Part shown: one piece after another, positions 49,461 through 64,000 of the stretch | How the letters are laid out: every line of letters begins with the position of its first letter | Numbering within the stretch: position 1 is the first letter of the stretch | Assembly (NCBI RefSeq): GCF_038396635.1 | Contig: NZ_CP121687.1 | Location: forward strand, 2,842,592-2,906,591 | Source: Defluviitalea saccharophila | GTDB taxonomy: Bacteria > Bacillota > Clostridia > Lachnospirales > Defluviitaleaceae | Direction of reading: 5' to 3' | Length of the DNA: 64,000 nucleotides | Translations under genes and position numbers: made by a program | The notes under the pieces: generated by a model | Database searches by the model: none | The model's input: the letters and a program-made list of their open reading frames with translations, nothing else | What the model was told of the DNA's origin: nothing

Positions 49461-50174
49461 ATGTTAACCATAGCCATTTGTGAAGATGAAATATTTCAAC
49501 AACAGCAATTAGAAAAAATGATATTTAATATGGGACTAAAAGAATCTATAAATCTTCATAAATTTGAATCTGGAGAAGAGCTTATTCAAGCTTATGAAGG
49601 TGGAGAAAGGTATTCTATTATTTTTCTTGATATGCGGATGAATGAACTTGATGGCATTCAAACCGCGGAGATTATCAGGAAATGGGATAAGACCTGCCTA
49701 ATCATTATTATTACATCAATCATGGAATATGCCATTAAAGGATATAGTATTCATGCTTATGATTTTATTCTTAAACCTGTAGATAAGGAGAAATTTAGTA
49801 AAGTATTTAGAAAAGCAATAAAAGAGATACAGGTAATAATGAATAAGACGTATACTATCCAAACAAGAGACAAAACGATCGTATTAAGACTGGCAAATAT
49901 TATCTACATTGAAAGTGATAAAAAACGAGTGATTATACATACAACAGAAAAATCTTATGTTGGCAATGAGAATATCACTAAAACAGAGAGTATTCTGATG
50001 CATGATGGTTTCATAAGAATCAGTCGATACTATTTAGTGAATATTAACCACATCAAGGAAATTGGTGTTAAAACACTTATGCTTACATCGGGAGTAGAAC
50101 TAAATTATAGTGATAAGTATCGTGATATTATAAAAAAGGAATACATGAAGTATATGATGGGGGATATGTCATGA
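49461..50174 (+). CDS. agrA: AgrA-like LytTR response regulator
   Basis: The 237-residue protein has a receiver domain (CEDE, phospho-Asp in IIFLDMRM, Lys in ILKPVDK) and a LytTR DNA-binding domain (IIYIESDKKRVIIHT, FIRISRYYLVNINHI). It is coupled to the sensor by a 4-base overlap and belongs to a full agr set. LytTR regulators bind tandem sites of about 21-bp period, and such a site precedes agrB here. Confidence 0.92.
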   Translation: MLTIAICEDEIFQQQQLEKMIFNMGLKESINLHKFESGEELIQAYEGGERYSIIFLDMRMNELDGIQTAEIIRKWDKTCLIIIITSIMEYAIKGYSIHAYDFILKPVDKEKFSKVFRKAIKEIQVIMNKTYTIQTRDKTIVLRLANIIYIESDKKRVIIHTTEKSYVGNENITKTESILMHDGFIRISRYYLVNINHIKEIGVKTLMLTSGVELNYSDKYRDIIKKEYMKYMMGDMS

Positions 50175-51505
50175 TACAAGAATATGCATCAGACTTACTT
50201 TTGCTAGTCAATAATACTGTAGGTTTGTTTCTTGTGATTCGTTTTTTGAATCATCTGTTAGATAAAAGAGATATTGAAAAAATAAGGCGAAGATGGGAAA
50301 AGATTTTAATTCTCATTGTTTCAGTTACTATTAATATTTTGGTTGAAAACCTTGGGGTAAGTTTGTTATGGGGGATAATTATCTTTTTTCTTGTTGGAGA
50401 CTTATTTTATCAGGGGAAAAAACATGTAAAATTAGTAGTAGCGATTTTCATCGTAGTATTTTCTTTTGCCGTCGAATTGACAACCGCTGTTTTGTCTGGA
50501 TTGTTATTTGAGACAAGCATTTTAGATGTTCGAAATAATGTCATGCATCTTTTTTTAGGCGGGATTATTTCAAAGCTTTTGCTCATGCTATTAGTAGAAG
50601 TTATTATTAGGTTCAGGAGAAGTAATGCTTCTAAAATATCACTTGGTTCGTGGTTGTTAATCATCTCTATACCCATTATCAGTATTGTATTAGCAGTAAT
50701 TAGCGTTTACGAACCGATGATTAATAATTCTGCTAGTAATATGTCCATTTTATCTTGTATATCCATTATCTACATCAATCTCATCGCTTTTTATCTTTTT
50801 GACAATATCATTACTCAGATTGATGAAAATCATCAGATAAGATTAAGAGAAGAGCAGTTACTATTACAACAGTATCAATATAAAAATATTATATCAGGTC
50901 ATAATAAAGTAAAAATGATACGTCATGATATGTTAGGGCATTTAATTGCAATCGATGGATATTTGACAAATAATAAAATTGAGGAAGCAAAAAGCTATAT
51001 TAAAAAGTTGCATAACGAACTTGATTTTTCAAGACAAGGAATATTATCAGAGAATGTTGCTGTGGATGCAATCATCAATAATAGAAAGACTATAGCAAAG
51101 GAACTTGGCATTGAAATGAATCATGATATAATGATACCTCAAAACATGAAGATTAATGATATGGATATATGCGTAGTTCTTGGCAATGCTTTAAATAATT
51201 CAATTGAGGCTTGCCAACGTATTGGTGAGGATATCCAAAAGTATATTAATTTAAAAATGAGGTATAAAAAAGAGGTACTATTAATTGACGTAAGAAATCC
51301 ATATAATATCGACACAATTAAAGTGAGAAATGGACATTTTGTGTCGTCAAAGCCATTTAGAAGAAAAGAGGAAATAGGAACAGGTATTGGAAATATCAAA
51401 GCAGTCGCAGAGAAATACAATGGATTATGTGAAACAGAGATGCTATCAGATGTCTTTGTTCTTAAAGTGATGATACCTGACAAAATTATAGGCATAAATT
51501 TATAA
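50171..51505 (+). CDS. agrC: AgrC-like sensor histidine kinase (GHKL)
   Basis: The 444-residue sensor has six to seven membrane helices in the N-terminal 215 residues, a coiled coil, the His motif MIRHDMLGHL, the N-box VVLGNALNNSIEAC and the G-box GTGIGNIKAVAEKYNG. This is the HPK10 type that senses cyclic peptides. The predicted ligand is the product of the AgrD-like gene 700 bases downstream. Confidence 0.92.
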   Translation: MIQEYASDLLLLVNNTVGLFLVIRFLNHLLDKRDIEKIRRRWEKILILIVSVTINILVENLGVSLLWGIIIFFLVGDLFYQGKKHVKLVVAIFIVVFSFAVELTTAVLSGLLFETSILDVRNNVMHLFLGGIISKLLLMLLVEVIIRFRRSNASKISLGSWLLIISIPIISIVLAVISVYEPMINNSASNMSILSCISIIYINLIAFYLFDNIITQIDENHQIRLREEQLLLQQYQYKNIISGHNKVKMIRHDMLGHLIAIDGYLTNNKIEEAKSYIKKLHNELDFSRQGILSENVAVDAIINNRKTIAKELGIEMNHDIMIPQNMKINDMDICVVLGNALNNSIEACQRIGEDIQKYINLKMRYKKEVLLIDVRNPYNIDTIKVRNGHFVSSKPFRRKEEIGTGIGNIKAVAEKYNGLCETEMLSDVFVLKVMIPDKIIGINL

Positions 51506-51522
51506 TTCAATCATAGGCATTC

Positions 51523-51587
51523 TTTCGTTGCTTTTGGAGGGTATTTCATTCCTTTTCTATTGAAAAATTATGTGAAGATGTTATAGT
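51523..51587 (+). promoter_or_regulatory. agrBD promoter with tandem AgrA-like binding sites
   Basis: Two direct repeats, TTTCGTTGCTTTT (51523-51535) and TTTCATTCCTTTT (51544-51556), have a period of exactly 21 bases, two helical turns. The second ends 3 bases before a -35 TTGAAA (51560-51565), with a 16-base spacer and -10 TATAGT (51582-51587). This geometry matches LytTR regulators acting as class II activators. Confidence 0.72.
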
Positions 51588-51613
51588 AAACTCAAATTGT
51601 TGGAGGGATTATA

Positions 51614-52225
51614 ATGATAAAACAATTTGCAGGAATTATAACATCTTTTTTAGTGCACGAAAATATTATTAGGGATGATGATTATGAGATATATCAATAT
51701 GGAACAGAGCAGATATTAATAAATCTAACGATGTTATTGGTTATTATCATTATTGCTACTATAGTAAATATGTGGGCAGAAACGATATTTTTTCTTGTTA
51801 GTATGTTACCAATTCGAGCAGTTGCAGGAGGTTTTCATGCAAGCACACCTCTAAAATGCAATGTTTTAACTGTATCCGTATATATATTAAATATTATTTT
51901 TATCAATTTCTTTAAAAATCATATGACTATCTATATACTTCTTGCATTATTGAGCTTTGTGATGTTTAGCATATTTCGATATGCTCCAGTTGATCATAAA
52001 AATAAAGTGTTACATCAAGATGAATTTATAATCGTAAAGAAAAAAAGTCGTATTCTTGGAATGCTAATCATTGGAACTTGTACGGGAGTTGCATTTGCAA
52101 TAAGTCCAACCAATGTCTTTGTAATTAGCACTATGATGGGTGCCTTGACAGCATCTGTTTCATTATTCATAGGAAGTATAATAAGAGGGGGTGAAAAGTA
52201 TGAAAACAGTGGATATACTTCGTAA
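51614..52225 (+). CDS. agrB: AgrB-like pheromone-processing membrane endopeptidase
   Basis: The 203-residue protein is of usual AgrB length, with several membrane helices. The catalytic pair lies in PIRAVAGGFHASTPLKC: His75 and Cys82, equivalent to His77 and Cys84 of S. aureus AgrB. It cleaves and cyclises the AgrD precursor. GGAGG precedes the ATG. Its end overlaps agrD by 26 bases. Confidence 0.94.
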   Translation: MIKQFAGIITSFLVHENIIRDDDYEIYQYGTEQILINLTMLLVIIIIATIVNMWAETIFFLVSMLPIRAVAGGFHASTPLKCNVLTVSVYILNIIFINFFKNHMTIYILLALLSFVMFSIFRYAPVDHKNKVLHQDEFIIVKKKSRILGMLIIGTCTGVAFAISPTNVFVISTMMGALTASVSLFIGSIIRGGEKYENSGYTS

Positions 52226-52346
52226 ATATGTTGGTACTGCTTTTGCTATTGCAGCTTTTGTAGTTGCTCAATCAGCATCGACACAATTTAGCTTCATTTA
52301 TTACCAAGACATTGTACCTGAAAAAGTCAAAAACTTAACAAAGTAA
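52200..52346 (+). CDS. agrD: AgrD-like cyclic pheromone precursor without cysteine
   Basis: The 48-residue peptide begins inside agrB after SD GAGGGGGTG. It has an amphipathic N-terminal helix (residues 4-24), a core STQFSFIYY and an acidic/charged tail QDIVPEKVKNL with the Pro that AgrD tails carry. The peptide contains no Cys. By position, Ser31 of S-F-I-Y-Y (31-35) takes the place of the ring-forming Cys, predicting a five-residue lactone rather than a thiolactone. Ser-type lactones are known in S. intermedius and in the Enterococcus Fsr system. Confidence 0.85.
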   Translation: MKTVDILRKYVGTAFAIAAFVVAQSASTQFSFIYYQDIVPEKVKNLTK

Positions 52347-54404: not shown

Positions 54405-54439
54405 CACCTCCTAATGACAATAATTTGTAGTAGGAGGTG
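54405..54439 (+). promoter_or_regulatory. Hairpin sequestering the transposase ribosome binding site
   Basis: CACCTCCTA (54405-54413) pairs with TAGGAGGTG (54431-54439). The latter is the SD, 7 bases before the ATG. The inner ACAAT/ATTTGT lengthens the stem. This would repress translation and also resembles a terminator (T-run after the stem). Confidence 0.75.
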
Positions 54440-54446
54440 TTTTTTT

Positions 54447-55295
54447 ATGGGAAGAAAGTGTAGGATTGAACCAGTTGGTGCAATATATCATGTCATTCAA
54501 CGAGGAAATAACAAAAAATCAATTTTTGAAAATGAAGAAGACAAAAAATTTTTTATGAAACTAGTAAAAAAATACAAAGAAGGCTTAGGCTATAAGATTT
54601 ACGGATTTGTTCTAATGGACAACCATTATCATTTTATAATTCAGACATTTCATCAGCCTTTACATAAGATTATGCATAGATGGAATAGTAATTATAGCAA
54701 ATATTATAATTATAAACATGATGGAGTTGGACATGTATTTCAAGCTAGATATAAATCTATATTGGTACAGGATGAAAGATATCTTTTATCATTACTTAGA
54801 TATATACATAATAACCCAGTAAGAGCAGGAATAGTTAAAAATATTGCTGATTATAAATGGAGCAGCGATGTTTATTATCGAACTTATATTCAGGATGGGA
54901 TTGTAGACATATATTTAATTTTAAGTATGTTATCTTTATCAGTAGAAAATAGCATAAAGCAATATAGAGAATATATGGCTGAAATAGTTAGCGAATCTAA
55001 AAAAGAATATGAAAATACTATGGTTTTAGGAAAAGAAGCCTATAGCATTATGGATAGGACAGAGGAAAAACCTAACAAAAGAAAATCGTTAGAAGAAATA
55101 TTAAATGAAACAGGAGCAGAACAAGAAAAAATAATATTAATTAAAAAAGGTTCAAAAAAGAGAGAATTAACGACATATAAGCTACAATATATTAAAAAAG
55201 CGCAAGAGTTAAACTATACTTTACAAGAAATAGGAGAAGTAATTGGTATGAACAAGAGTGGCATATACAATCTTATTCAAAGGTATAAATTGTAA
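54447..55295 (+). CDS. REP-associated tyrosine transposase (Y1 HUH family)
   Basis: The 282-residue protein opens with RIEPVGAIYHVIQRGNNKKSIF and has the HUH motif NHYHF in GFVLMDNHYHFIIQT, then HVFQARYKSILVQDERYLLSLLRYIHNNPVRAGIV with the catalytic Tyr. A C-terminal HTH-like end follows (YTLQEIGEVIGMNKSGIYNLIQRY). The frame is intact. ATG 54447 is used; upstream in-frame codons belong to the leader hairpin. Confidence 0.92.
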   Translation: MGRKCRIEPVGAIYHVIQRGNNKKSIFENEEDKKFFMKLVKKYKEGLGYKIYGFVLMDNHYHFIIQTFHQPLHKIMHRWNSNYSKYYNYKHDGVGHVFQARYKSILVQDERYLLSLLRYIHNNPVRAGIVKNIADYKWSSDVYYRTYIQDGIVDIYLILSMLSLSVENSIKQYREYMAEIVSESKKEYENTMVLGKEAYSIMDRTEEKPNKRKSLEEILNETGAEQEKIILIKKGSKKRELTTYKLQYIKKAQELNYTLQEIGEVIGMNKSGIYNLIQRYKL

Positions 55296-59121: not shown

Positions 59122-59796
59122 ATGAAAATTACGCCGAGTCTAGTTATTGCTGATTTGGAAGAATATTTACGATTATTTCATATTTCATTATCACAGCAAG
59201 CCCGACAGACTTTACTTGATGTAGAAGAATTTGCGTACAAATGCGATCATCCTGTTAACGAAAATCTTTTCTTTAGTAAAATTATAAGAAACTATGATAC
59301 AGTTCAGGACATACTATTGGATAAAGGAATTAACCCTACCTTAGCAGCATTGATTTTAGAAAAAAGGTACTATGACACTATAGAGGATGAAGTAAGATAT
59401 AGAGAAGAAGATTTTAGTTATTCTCAGATATATAGGAGAAGAGCTAATCCAAAAACGGATATTATCGACAGAGCGTTAGAATATTGTGTGCTGGAAAACA
59501 GAAATTTCATAGAGAATAAAGATATTCTTTTGGCTGCTATGGATTATTTTGAAGATTCTATTGATGAGGAACATAGCCATTGGACAGATAAAACCTTAGA
59601 GAAATCTCCTGTAACATTATCCCATGTATACGGACAGTATAATGAAAATCTTTGGATAAAATTCGAAGATATAAGAAAAGGATTGCAAAATTCTAAAGTA
59701 CCAGAAGATAATATAGAGCTTGAAAGAAACGATATCAATATATTTTTGCATTATGAGCATGAAGAATTACATAATAGCTCAACCCATACTGCATGA
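59122..59796 (+). CDS. Hypothetical acidic helical protein
   Basis: The 224-residue cytoplasmic protein is rich in Asp, Glu, Tyr and His. The stretch IIDRALEYCVLENRNFIENKDILLAAMDYF faintly recalls a Clp N-terminal-type repeat, but I cannot assign it. GGAGGG precedes the ATG. It is convergent with the Cys-rich repeat-protein operon and shares its terminator. Confidence 0.65.
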   Translation: MKITPSLVIADLEEYLRLFHISLSQQARQTLLDVEEFAYKCDHPVNENLFFSKIIRNYDTVQDILLDKGINPTLAALILEKRYYDTIEDEVRYREEDFSYSQIYRRRANPKTDIIDRALEYCVLENRNFIENKDILLAAMDYFEDSIDEEHSHWTDKTLEKSPVTLSHVYGQYNENLWIKFEDIRKGLQNSKVPEDNIELERNDINIFLHYEHEELHNSSTHTA

Positions 59797-59885: not shown

Positions 59886-60560
59886 CTAACATTTTTCTTT
59901 TTCACTTACCTGGTCGATTAAACAGAATTCAACAGAAATTCCTGGAGGGTCTGCCACGGCACCTGGTATATTGATGAGTAGTGCTTTCATATCTGATGTA
60001 TGCAGGGCGGTACCTTGTTTAATTTTCTGTGTTAAGTCCGGCTTATTAAATTTTTTAATAATGATATTTATTTCTCCTCCTGAAAATGCATCAGGATTAA
60101 TTATCAAAGATCCTGTGACAGGAATTGTTGATTCCCACAGAAGAAAGTTTTCATCAAGAGGGATATTGTTATAAGTTGCAGCTGCTTCGCATTGTAAATA
60201 TTCAGGACAGCATTTATCTTTCCATTTACAGTTTGAATCCAATAGTTCCTGTGTGCAATGTCTAAATGTTATGTTTGAGGAACCGTTTGGGACGTAGATC
60301 TCAATTCTTCTGATATTATCTCCAGTGAATACAAAAGATTGGCCAGGCAGCAGGCTGCGGGTAATTATTTTTCCATCAAATAAATAAATTCTGATTGTTG
60401 CTGTGGTGGTGTTTTGGCTGCCATCAAAGGTAAATGTTCCTTTAACCGGCACATAGCTTTCCCATATTGTACCTCTTCTTACTATAAAAAAGTTACCTTC
60501 ACATTCTAAGGGAGCAGGGCAGCATGATTTAGGAGTACTTGTTAATAATTGCATTGACAT
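59886..60560 (-). CDS. Two-repeat Cys-rich beta protein, downstream gene of unit A
   Basis: The 224-residue protein has no signal peptide. Two tandem units of about 100 residues each open with CCPAPLEC or CCPEYLQC, followed by (I/L)WES-x-x-PV-(K/T)-G, a beta-rich core, and end with F-x-x-C. The phrase GQSFVFTGDN, then I and S-N, resembles what I recall of Ena/DUF3992 endospore-appendage subunits. That family link is an unverified inference. SD AAGGGAGATG precedes the ATG, which lies 19 bases inside the end of the upstream gene. It is closely similar to 62838-63512. Confidence 0.72.
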   Translation of the reverse strand: MSMQLLTSTPKSCCPAPLECEGNFFIVRRGTIWESYVPVKGTFTFDGSQNTTTATIRIYLFDGKIITRSLLPGQSFVFTGDNIRRIEIYVPNGSSNITFRHCTQELLDSNCKWKDKCCPEYLQCEAAATYNNIPLDENFLLWESTIPVTGSLIINPDAFSGGEINIIIKKFNKPDLTQKIKQGTALHTSDMKALLINIPGAVADPPGISVEFCLIDQVSEKEKC

Positions 60561-62683
60561 GGATTTTCATCTCCCTTCAAAAGAAATTCTTCCTGCATGC
60601 AGACGTCTATAAAAGCAGAGCCAACGCCTGATGCATTATCCACTTTTATAAATACATTTTTGATATGATCTGCAGTCAATATCCTAGCGATATTTGAAGG
60701 AATGGTTTCTGTGATTGTGCTTTTGCCGTATCGTTCTATAATAACCGTTGCAGATTCACCGGCAAACAGGAAAACTTCAATCATTGCCTTTACAGGAAAT
60801 GCTGAATGCCATAATAAATATTTCTGATTGCTTGGTATATTTTGTGCTTCTGCAGATATAGACTGGCATACAAGGGGTTCTGGACAGCAGCAGTCTTTTT
60901 CACACGGTTCAATAATATTCTGTGTACAAAGTTCAAAGTCCAGGTCTCCCATTGCTTCTGGATCTTCGCTGGAAAATCGTACACTTACTGATACAATTCC
61001 CTCATCGGTTATCATAAATCCTTCTAAAGGTTTTAGAGTTCGTGAATAGATGGGTCCATTTTTATATCGAATTTTTACAGTCATATCTGTATCGCCTTCA
61101 GAGATATTGCGCAGCGAAAATGTTCCTTTTATTAGTTCTGTAGATTCCCATAAAACCATTTCTCTATTTAAAGGTAAAGATGCTGCTAAAGGGAATATTA
61201 TAGAAAAATCAGGATCGAATTCGCATTTTACAGGTTCCGGGCAGCAAATCTCATTTTTATTACAATAATTTTTGATTTCAGGATTGTATGAGGATACTTG
61301 TTCTTGTATACAGAGACTTGTAACAATTGAATTATTACTCGGGTCACCATTATTCAGTTCAACGAATAATCCCTCAAAATCTGTAGTTCTTTCAATCAAT
61401 ATTCGGTTTCCTTCAAAAGTTCTTATAATGTCTGGCTTTTCGAAGCGTTTGATAATTACTTTTGTTATTTGCTCTGGTTGGCCTTCTACTGAGATTAATA
61501 TTTCACCGTCTACGGGAATTTTAGAAATCCATAATGGGATTGTCTGGTTTTGAGGATTATTATCGGATGCAAACGTAATATTATTACAGTGCAGGGGGGT
61601 GGGGCAGCAAGAAGGTTTGAGGTTTTTTTGCAGATGTCCTTCCTGTATACAATATTGGAAGAAAAGGGACCCCATTTGTGTACCTGGTTGATTAAAGCTT
61701 AATGTAATATCTTTTATACCTTTTGCAGTAATAGCAAATCCTCCGAAAGGCGCTATAGTTTTTTCTAATGTTTTTTTATTATTAAACTGTATACGTACCG
61801 TTAACGCTTCATCGTACCCATTGAGAATGGCATAAGTACCTTTTACATCCAGAAGGGATTCCCATATTTTTATACTTTCAATGATTGGTGGCTCTCCAAA
61901 ACTATGGATATGCTCACAGCTAAAAGGTTCATCGCAGCAAAGACTATTGTTTTCTTCCTGATGACAAGAGAGTATACTAACGAATGAAAGGACTGGGTCT
62001 ATTTCTGCAGTAGTGATTGTAACTTTCTTAATATCATCAACCACTAGGGTGAAAGGCACAACAGAGTTATTAGTGTTCGTTACATCCAGCGGAATCGTTC
62101 TTATCACATCTGGTTTTTTAAAGCGCTCTACCTTAACCGTAGCGGTTGGATGATCTGCTGGATTAGATGTTGTTAAAAAGATAATATTCAGAATTCCTTT
62201 GATTGGGAAGAAAGATTCCCATATAAATAAAGGTTCTGTTTCCCAATCCATTGCTTGACTTATAAGGCCGGGACATGAAAAAGCAGGAGAACAGCAAGTT
62301 CCTTTATTTGTTTTTGTTTTCATGATGTCCAGGCTGCAATAATCAAAAAAGACTGAGGCTGTTTGATCCGATGGAGCATTTATTACTCGAACAGTTGCTT
62401 CAACAGCATTATCAACGGTAAGTGCATAGGATGCTCCTCGTCCTATATTTCTTGAAATCACTGTACCATTCGCTCGTTTAATTGAGAAGACGGCAATAGC
62501 TCCTACTGGTGTTCCTGATGCATTCAACTCTAAAACAAAGCTTCCTTTGACAGGTTCTGTTGACTTCCATAGGGTTACGGTTTCATTAATGTTCACAGTG
62601 GTGCCAAATCTTCCGCTGCATTTTATTGGCTCTGGGGGGCAAAATTTTTTTGTAAGTTCCGGGCTGAAGAATTGTAGCGCCAT
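60542..62683 (-). CDS. Six-repeat Cys-rich beta protein, upstream gene of unit A
   Basis: The 713-residue protein is built of six tandem units of about 100-115 residues. They begin at about residues 15 (CPPEPIKC), 130 (CCSPAFSC), 248 (CCDEPFSC), 356 (CCPTPLHC), 478 (CCPEPVKC) and 598 (CCCPEPLVC). Each has an (L/I)W-x-S motif about 15-30 residues on and a closing Cys followed by a polar pair (CSLD, CHQE, CIQE, CTQN, CMQE). No signal peptide or membrane helix. A structural polymer crosslinked by disulfides is the likely role; Ena/DUF3992-like folding is inferred. AGAGGTG precedes the ATG. Confidence 0.74.
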   Translation of the reverse strand: MALQFFSPELTKKFCPPEPIKCSGRFGTTVNINETVTLWKSTEPVKGSFVLELNASGTPVGAIAVFSIKRANGTVISRNIGRGASYALTVDNAVEATVRVINAPSDQTASVFFDYCSLDIMKTKTNKGTCCSPAFSCPGLISQAMDWETEPLFIWESFFPIKGILNIIFLTTSNPADHPTATVKVERFKKPDVIRTIPLDVTNTNNSVVPFTLVVDDIKKVTITTAEIDPVLSFVSILSCHQEENNSLCCDEPFSCEHIHSFGEPPIIESIKIWESLLDVKGTYAILNGYDEALTVRIQFNNKKTLEKTIAPFGGFAITAKGIKDITLSFNQPGTQMGSLFFQYCIQEGHLQKNLKPSCCPTPLHCNNITFASDNNPQNQTIPLWISKIPVDGEILISVEGQPEQITKVIIKRFEKPDIIRTFEGNRILIERTTDFEGLFVELNNGDPSNNSIVTSLCIQEQVSSYNPEIKNYCNKNEICCPEPVKCEFDPDFSIIFPLAASLPLNREMVLWESTELIKGTFSLRNISEGDTDMTVKIRYKNGPIYSRTLKPLEGFMITDEGIVSVSVRFSSEDPEAMGDLDFELCTQNIIEPCEKDCCCPEPLVCQSISAEAQNIPSNQKYLLWHSAFPVKAMIEVFLFAGESATVIIERYGKSTITETIPSNIARILTADHIKNVFIKVDNASGVGSAFIDVCMQEEFLLKGDENPCQCNY

Positions 62684-62750
62684 AGTACTTCACCTCTTTA
62701 TAGTGTTCTACTATCAATATATGTCGAATGAGGTCAAATTGGACATAATA

Positions 62751-62840
62751 ATGGTGCCTGTTTGTCAACATTTCCACATTAAAAAAAACACCTCCTGTTG
62801 ATGATTTTCAACAGGAGGTGTTTTATATGGGAAATAACTA
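62751..62840 (+). repeat. Solo REP-like derivative of the RAYT left end
   Basis: ATGGTGCCTGTTTGTC then AACATTTCCACATT (62751-62780) is nearly identical to the RAYT element end. A perfect hairpin CACCTCCTGTTGA / TCAACAGGAGGTG (62789-62820) and ATGGGAAATAAC, matching the transposase start region, follow. It separates the two copies of the repeat-protein operon. Confidence 0.85.
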
Positions 62841-63512
62841 AAATGCAATCTTTTTATTTAATTGGTCTTTTATACAGTATTGAACAGACATGTCAGGTGG
62901 ATCCGCCAGGTTTCTGGGTATACAGACGAGGAGTGCTTTCATATCTGATGCATGGATGACAGTGTTTTGTGTAATGGTTTTTACTAAATCGGGATTGTTA
63001 AATCGCTTGATAATTATTTTGACCGATCCTCCTGCAAAGGAAAATAGGTTGATTTCTAGGAACCCCCTCACAGGAAGGGTTGATTGCCATAAAAGAAAGT
63101 CTTCACCTACAGGGATGTTCCGATATGTTACAGGTAATTCGCATTGTAAGGATTGCGGGCAGCATTTATTCCGCAGCTTGCAGTTCAAATCTATGAGTTC
63201 CTGGGCGCAATGTCTGAATAAAATATTTGAAGGAATTTCTGAGACGAAAGCCTCGATTTTCTTGACATTATCTCCAGTAAAAGCAAAGGATTGCTCCGGC
63301 TGTAAGTTGCGAGTAACTACTTTTCCATTAAATAAATGAATTCTAATGGTTGCACTGGTCGAGTTAGTGCTGCCATCGAAAGTAAATGTTCCTTTTACCG
63401 GTACATAGCTTTCCCATATTGTGCCTCCTCTTTCTATGACAAATCCACCGCTGCATTCCAAGGGAGCAGGGCAGCATAATTTAGGATTTTTGGTTAACAC
63501 TTGGAGTGACAT
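62838..63512 (-). CDS. Two-repeat Cys-rich beta protein, downstream gene of unit B
   Basis: The 224-residue paralogue of 59886-60560 has the same length, the same two units (CCPAPLEC, CCPQSLQC) and well over half its residues identical by eye, including GTIWESYVPVKGTFTFDGS. It overlaps the upstream gene by 19 bases, exactly as in unit A. SD AAAGGAGATG precedes the ATG. The stop abuts the REP-like element. Confidence 0.72.
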   Translation of the reverse strand: MSLQVLTKNPKLCCPAPLECSGGFVIERGGTIWESYVPVKGTFTFDGSTNSTSATIRIHLFNGKVVTRNLQPEQSFAFTGDNVKKIEAFVSEIPSNILFRHCAQELIDLNCKLRNKCCPQSLQCELPVTYRNIPVGEDFLLWQSTLPVRGFLEINLFSFAGGSVKIIIKRFNNPDLVKTITQNTVIHASDMKALLVCIPRNLADPPDMSVQYCIKDQLNKKIAF

Positions 63513-64000
63513 AGATTTTCATCTCCTTTCAATGGCAGTTCTTCCTGCATACATATTTCCATAACAACACGTTCTGTTCCTAATTCAGAATTCATATTTA
63601 TAAAAACATTTTTGATATGATCTACAACCAATATTCTGGAGCTATTAGTTGGAAGGGTTTCTGTAATTGTGTTTTCATTGTATCGTTCGATAATAAGTGT
63701 TGCAGGTTCAATGGCATCTTGGAGAATTTCTATCATTGCTTTTACTGGAAATCCTGCATGCCACAATAAATAATTCTGATTGCCTGGTATACCTGTGGCT
63801 TCTGTAGATAAAAACTGGCATATAAGGGGTTGAGGACAGCAAAGATTATTTTTATTTTTTTCTAAAATATTTTGTGTGCAAGATTCAATGACTACCTGAC
63901 CCCGTGCCTCTGCAATTGTACTGGAAAATCGTACACTTAATGATACGATTCCCTCAGCGGTTATCATAAACCCTTCAGATGGTCTTAGTATTCGTGTATC
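63494..64000 (-). CDS. Cys-rich repeat protein, upstream gene of unit B (partial, 5' end beyond window)
   Basis: The visible 168 residues are the C-terminal end of a paralogue of the six-repeat protein. The end of one unit (RFSS, ESCTQN) is followed by a last unit starting CCPQPLIC, with LLWHAGFPVKAMIEI and CMQEELPLKGDENLC, matching the last unit of 60542-62683. The frame stays open to base 64000, so the start lies outside. Confidence 0.72.
   Translation of the reverse strand, partial: DTRILRPSEGFMITAEGIVSLSVRFSSTIAEARGQVVIESCTQNILEKNKNNLCCPQPLICQFLSTEATGIPGNQNYLLWHAGFPVKAMIEILQDAIEPATLIIERYNENTITETLPTNSSRILVVDHIKNVFINMNSELGTERVVMEICMQEELPLKGDENLCHSKC

Follow-up and report, generated by a model that had tools for sequence, protein, structure and literature searches.

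The DNA analysed here (the window) is a stretch of 64,000 nt on Defluviitalea saccharophila contig NZ_CP121687.1 (bases 2842592-2906591), the single contig of a 3.01 Mb genome. Two gene pairs, called units 1 and 2, are situated at the right edge of the window; in each pair, a long and a short gene overlap by 19 nt and encode chains of repeated, cysteine-containing domains that resemble Ena, the subunits of Bacillus endospore appendages. The features of the two units are listed below, with A and B denoting two classes of domain.

59886..60560, minus strand: unit 1 short gene, 224 aa, two Ena-like domains (AB) at 60222-60533 and 59889-60221
60542..62683, minus strand: unit 1 long gene, 713 aa, six Ena-like domains, (AB)3, at 62306-62650, 61949-62305, 61619-61948, 61256-61618, 60902-61255 and 60545-60901
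62690..62697, minus strand: Shine-Dalgarno-like sequence AGAGGTGA before the unit 1 long gene, conserved in the upstream alignment
62712..62727, minus strand: promoter-like block TCGACATATATTGATA before the unit 1 long gene, with the mother-cell-type -10 candidate CATATATT
62785..62824, minus strand: terminator-like hairpin of 17 pairs followed by a T run, 3' of the unit 2 short gene, parting the two units
62838..63512, minus strand: unit 2 short gene, 224 aa, two Ena-like domains
63494..64000, minus strand: unit 2 long gene, 3' part only within the window; the full gene encodes 711 aa and extends to the equivalent of 65629

The original prediction, which was made from the window, described two tandem units with 19-base overlaps. 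This was correct for the window, and the genome as a whole was found to hold five such units (2902477-2921744), each a six-domain gene overlapping a two-domain gene, with overlaps of 19, 19, 19, 4 and 10 nt. Units 1-3 lie in tandem and are followed by five other open reading frames (ORFs) on the opposite strand and then by units 4 and 5. Six repeats were counted in every unbroken long gene and two in every short gene, in agreement with the earlier statement that up to six units are fused in one chain. By searching the whole genome with a profile of the repeats (E ≤ 0.1), 41 copies were recovered, all inside the cluster: eight in each of the five units (including an interrupted one in unit 3) and a single remnant between units 4 and 5.

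Family membership was assessed using PF13157 (DUF3992; Enas, Bacillus endospore appendages), for which the Pfam cut-off is 22 bits. The unit 1 short protein scored well above this value (E=5.3e-8, 33.3 bits), giving a positive outcome to the hidden Markov model (HMM) check against DUF3992/Ena that had been proposed. The unit 1 long protein scored 22.0 bits, exactly at the cut-off, and the unit 2 short protein 20.9 bits, slightly under it (22.1 bits as a genome place). Scanning the genome with PF13157 gave 10 places, all marked as over the cut-off, one of them only together with its neighbours; neither this search nor the repeat profile found a single-domain Ena gene in the genome apart from the array. 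A profile of 62 aligned repeats was then compared using hhalign with one built from 16 single-domain Enas (four of genome G020 and 12 from the order to which genome G366 belongs), which resulted in a probability of 96.6% and an E value of 5.3e-10 with the two-cysteine (CC) connector and the last-strand cysteine in register. The repeat profile also picked up a single-domain Ena of G020 directly (E=3.7e-4). NCBIfam returned a lone weak and irrelevant match, far below its cut-off, and no window protein matched DUF4183 in Pfam at E ≤ 0.1.

The 62 aligned domains come from three genomes (the window genome, G001 and G002); domain 5 of the unit 3 long gene (stop codon), domain 1 of the second G001 long gene (disrupted frame) and the unit 4/5 remnant were omitted. 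Most domains carry C-C-x-x-P-x-x-C or a near variant at the start, a tryptophan in an early strand and a cysteine in the last strand. Three cysteine columns, including that of the last strand, are invariant (62/62), and the second connector cysteine, one tryptophan and one proline are at least 90% conserved. Every repeat had been said to open with C-C-x-x-P-x-x-C, which proved too strict: the CC connector is present in 56/62 domains, the remaining six are first domains of long chains and have a single cysteine, and the proline is absent from some repeats. Seven long genes had an aligned first domain, and in 6 of these the first connector is of the one-cysteine kind. In Ena1B, the connector residues Cys10 and Cys11 are described as bonding Cys109 and Cys24 of the subunits nine and ten positions back (PMC8619143).

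In a maximum-likelihood tree, odd- and even-numbered domains formed two classes (ultrafast bootstrap 99; Shimodaira-Hasegawa-like approximate likelihood-ratio test 95), a split recovered in 99% of 200 bootstrap trees and accompanied by a program warning of few columns and long branches. On this basis the long chains read (AB)3 and the short chains (AB)1. Given that each of the eight domain positions formed its own tree group, the 6+2 layout predates both the divergence of the three genomes and duplication of the units. G002 has one unit, in which domains 1-4 grouped with unit 3, domains 5-6 with unit 2 and the short gene with unit 1; it therefore looks recombinant. The five short proteins are 51-63% identical to one another and the four unbroken long proteins 54-68%, and dN/dS, the ratio of nonsynonymous to synonymous substitution rates, was 0.23-0.50 across 16 paralogue pairs of the nine unbroken genes, indicating purifying selection. 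The unit 3 long gene is broken by an in-frame TAA that is also found in the metagenome-assembled genome (MAG) record JAAYPH010000139, which additionally lacks the last domain of this gene and the unit 3 short gene. Judged from these comparisons, the array grows, recombines and decays while its unbroken copies stay under purifying selection.

Structure predictions were made for both unit 1 proteins using AlphaFold. The short model contained two beta domains and was of fair quality (predicted local distance difference test (pLDDT) 82.8; predicted template-modelling score (pTM) 0.81). When compared with 987 chains by a second-look aligner, its top matches were Ena2A (Z 8.5), Ena1C (8.1), Ena1B (7.8) and Ena3A (6.7). 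For the long model, compared with 982 chains, the same four Enas came first (Z 11.8, 11.7, 11.5 and 10.3), with Ena1C (PDB 9t3p) as the best match (Z 11.8). An Ena-like jelly roll, the lack of which had been named beforehand as grounds for abandoning the idea, was thus predicted, given that Enas took the first four rows for both models. The resemblance put forward in the original prediction is upheld, as the family model, the profile-profile comparison, the predicted fold and the cysteine pattern all agree.

Several results weigh against kinship with Ena. While 22/62 single domains matched PF13157 at E ≤ 0.01, 40/62 did not, and the best match of the repeat profile among PDB sequences (Ena3A, 8pdz) was weak (E=0.013). 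The third invariant cysteine lies 5-6 residues closer to the connector than in single-domain Enas, a spacing that bears on its equivalence with Ena1B Cys24. The long model (713 aa) was weak (pLDDT 63.5, pTM 0.56), and no conclusion was therefore drawn from its domain arrangement; in its list the fourth Ena (Z 10.3) was tied with a p24 GOLD domain. The Z scores of the short model (6.7-8.5) are middling, with Ena3A tied with the next, unrelated row (Z 6.3). Using plain Foldseek, in which the two domains are aligned together, unrelated two-domain proteins (e.g., cupins and vicilins) appeared among and above the Enas (Ena3A at rank 12, Ena2A at 16 and Ena1C at 24; E about 3e-4). The weak PDB match and the frequency of unrelated jelly rolls among the fold matches would suit cysteine-rich repeats that merely resemble Ena, yet that explanation is barely credible beside a profile-profile match with cysteines in register, a Pfam match over the cut-off, the retrieval of a G020 single-domain Ena by the repeat profile and the first four fold places held by Enas. 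Convergence on a generic jelly roll was also considered and rejected; it is countered by the profile homology with cysteines in register and by the Enas topping both second-look lists.

The closest described systems are the S-ENA subunits Ena1A, Ena1B and Ena2A of the Bacillus cereus group (PF13157; PDB 7a02, 9i0y), which have in common with the repeats the jelly roll, the CC connector and the last-strand cysteine and, like the array proteins, have no hydrophobic N-terminus. They differ in being single domains of about 110-120 residues, whereas the array proteins are clostridial and fuse two or six domains of two alternating classes in each chain. The same distinction holds for the L-ENA subunit Ena3A (PDB 8pdz), which is the best PDB sequence match of the repeat profile but a single domain. 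In the original prediction the array was proposed as a new class of fibre, which is overstated; it is a new architecture within a known superfamily.

Ena1C, the anchoring ring (PDB 9t3p), was the best fold match of the long model and the second of the short model, and it is described in PMC12921279 as a nonamer of separate chains, each with its own N-terminal linker, that forms a ring and no fibres; the array chains, in contrast, are fused. The fused chains could accordingly be an anchor, ring or coat piece, that is, a fixed pseudo-ring (e.g., of six plus two domains) in the coat or exosporium and not a fibre shaft. Fusion of appendage domains into a docking base has a precedent in F-ENA/F-Anchor (DUF4183), a spore appendage system likewise found in Clostridia in which the anchor fuses several fibre-type domains: F-Anchor-3 of Clostridium aceticum is reported to carry three DUF4183 domains in one chain, a predicted docking site for an F-ENA trimer (PMC11952670). 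The window genome has an F-ENA-type locus outside the window (L103:3086-4841, about 2685.6-2687.3 kb), where a 122-aa DUF4183 protein accompanies a 426-aa protein with three DUF4183 domains. F-ENA and F-Anchor belong to a different domain family and form C3-symmetric trimers, and the window proteins gave no DUF4183 match at E ≤ 0.1. We regard a fused anchor ring or coat piece as the main competing explanation and a serious one, although rather unlikely, given that no separate Ena shaft subunit was found in the genome for such a base to carry, that the CC, the stapling feature of fibre subunits, is kept in nearly all connectors and that five units seem many for an anchor.

Evidence for a link to sporulation was sought in the upstream regions. 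The genome encodes SigK (347.5 bits against an NCBIfam cut-off of 298.65) and two Spo0A C-terminal domains. Exactly five copies of TCGACATATATTGATA occur in the genome, one before each of the five long genes, with its CATA 40-46 nt before the ATG; when up to two mismatches were allowed, three more sites were found, against four for a reversed control pattern. The block also precedes the long genes of G001 and G002. In Clostridium difficile, mother-cell -10 boxes are reported to include CATATAAT and CATATTAT, with a -35 AC for SigK and ATA for SigE (PMC3789822). The core TCGACATA is also present before the 122-aa DUF4183 gene, with its CATA 39 nt ahead of the ATG and with ACC where the SigK -35 would lie. 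In a scan of the window, the 34 kb array region and the 8 kb F-ENA region, this core occurred at the five unit promoters, at the promoter of the 122-aa gene and once more elsewhere in the F-ENA region.

On the proposed check for sigma-E/K promoters, a fitting mother-cell-type -10 candidate precedes all five units, but the -35 AC of SigK is in place only in unit 2, which counts against mother-cell expression. On the same side stands a sigma-70-like site (9 of 12) that overlaps the unit 1 block and would suit surface or intracellular structural proteins of vegetative cells with no link to spores, although sigma-70-like sites are no commoner in that region than expected by chance. A vegetative role is nevertheless highly improbable in view of the Ena homology, the promoter core in common with the F-ENA-type gene and the N-termini: as the original prediction had noted in finding no signal peptide, no hydrophobic segment was seen at the N-terminus of any of the nine unbroken proteins.

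The distribution of the repeats was determined by multi-genome searches with the repeat profile in which at most 11 candidates per genome were scored, so that the match numbers are minima. Of 392 genomes of the order, seven matched the repeat profile. Four of these belong to the genus of the window genome (the window genome itself, one of the same species and two of other species) and carry fused chains; of the others, G020 has single-domain Enas, and G012 and G783 gave short marginal matches. In the class (391 genomes), matches were limited to the window genome and G411. PF13157 was found in 5 of 398 genomes of the phylum, including the window genome, and, within the order to which G366 belongs, in 79 of 397. 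When all frames of 41 loci were scanned, frames with at least two domains were present in the six loci of the window genome's genus and in none of the 35 others, which had been taken from among the matches listed. Among the genomes searched, fused Ena chains were seen only in this genus. Absence from spore-forming relatives had been named as a point that would tell against the idea, and it does so in part: none of the four genomes from other genera of the same family, which may or may not sporulate, matched the repeat profile. The nearest named records of the repeats are MAGs labelled Candidatus Epulonipiscium sp. In the titles and abstract openings of the appendage literature, mostly from non-subscription papers, no description of multi-domain Enas was found.

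Two of the single-domain relatives were inspected further. In G020, which belongs to another family of the order, five single-domain Ena genes are clustered (L026:7555-10001) and adjoin genes that by eye resemble radical S-adenosylmethionine (SAM) proteins. G411, from another family of the class, encodes a 120-aa relative (L104:4906-5268) that matches both PF13157 and the repeat profile and has the WxSxxPVxG motif without the CC connector. A phage or plasmid origin of the array was rejected: a tblastn search with the unit 1 short protein against phage (50,697) and plasmid (72,556) records gave no match, and no relative was confirmed when viral contigs were scanned with a pattern. A defence system was also rejected, as neither unit 1 protein had a PADLOC match.

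Elsewhere in the window, a 224-aa gene (59122-59796) faces the array and is kept next to it in G001 and G002; its product had no Pfam match at E ≤ 0.1. An agr-like quorum-sensing locus (49461-52346) comprises a LytTR response regulator and AgrB, both assigned using Pfam, together with a likely sensor kinase and a 51-aa AgrD-like ORF (52191-52346), both assigned by eye. A Y1 (IS200-like) transposase-family protein is encoded at 54414-55295, and its assignment to the kind associated with repetitive extragenic palindromic (REP) elements is a guess.

Taken as a whole, the genes probably encode concatenated Ena subunits that form a mother-cell-made, disulfide-stapled, pre-concatenated polymer (fibre or ring stack) on the spore. 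Homology to Ena is well supported, and beyond it we infer mother-cell expression, the disulfide partners, packing, polymerisation and location on the spore. In Ena fibres, single jelly rolls are described as extending the sheets of their neighbours sideways and as being stapled lengthwise by connector disulfides (PMC8619143 and PMC12921279). Each unit of the array would yield two products, a long one with three A-B jelly-roll pairs and a short one with a single pair, both most likely made in the mother cell during sporulation. As in Ena fibres, the domains would pack edge to edge, and disulfides may join the CC connector of a domain to cysteines of a second domain, belonging either to its own chain or to an adjacent one, resulting in a very resistant fibre or ring stack on the spore. 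The short chain perhaps completes or caps what the long chain starts; one long and one short chain would together supply eight domains, and closure into a ring is speculation. Given that no separate single-domain Ena subunit was found, the fused chains must themselves be the polymer, if any Ena polymer exists.

A more specific form of this proposal, about which we have slightly more doubt than confidence, is a concatenated disulfide pilus in which subunit order, A/B alternation and 6+2 stoichiometry are encoded in the gene and in which five paralogous units give this one Clostridia genus spore surface polymers of varied surface. With order, alternation and stoichiometry fixed in the gene, part of the neighbourhood in a fibre or ring would be encoded as one chain and not self-assembled from separate single domains.

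Chains of this kind would provide building blocks, already linked, for protein fibres of high resistance. A fused chain shows which domains must lie close together, and the packing rules and disulfide partners of Ena thereby become directly testable. The promoter core common to the array and the F-ENA-type gene suggests that one spore may bear two unrelated appendage systems. Known from the B. cereus group as fibre subunits with one domain each, the Ena superfamily now extends, in genetically fused form, to a genus of Clostridia.

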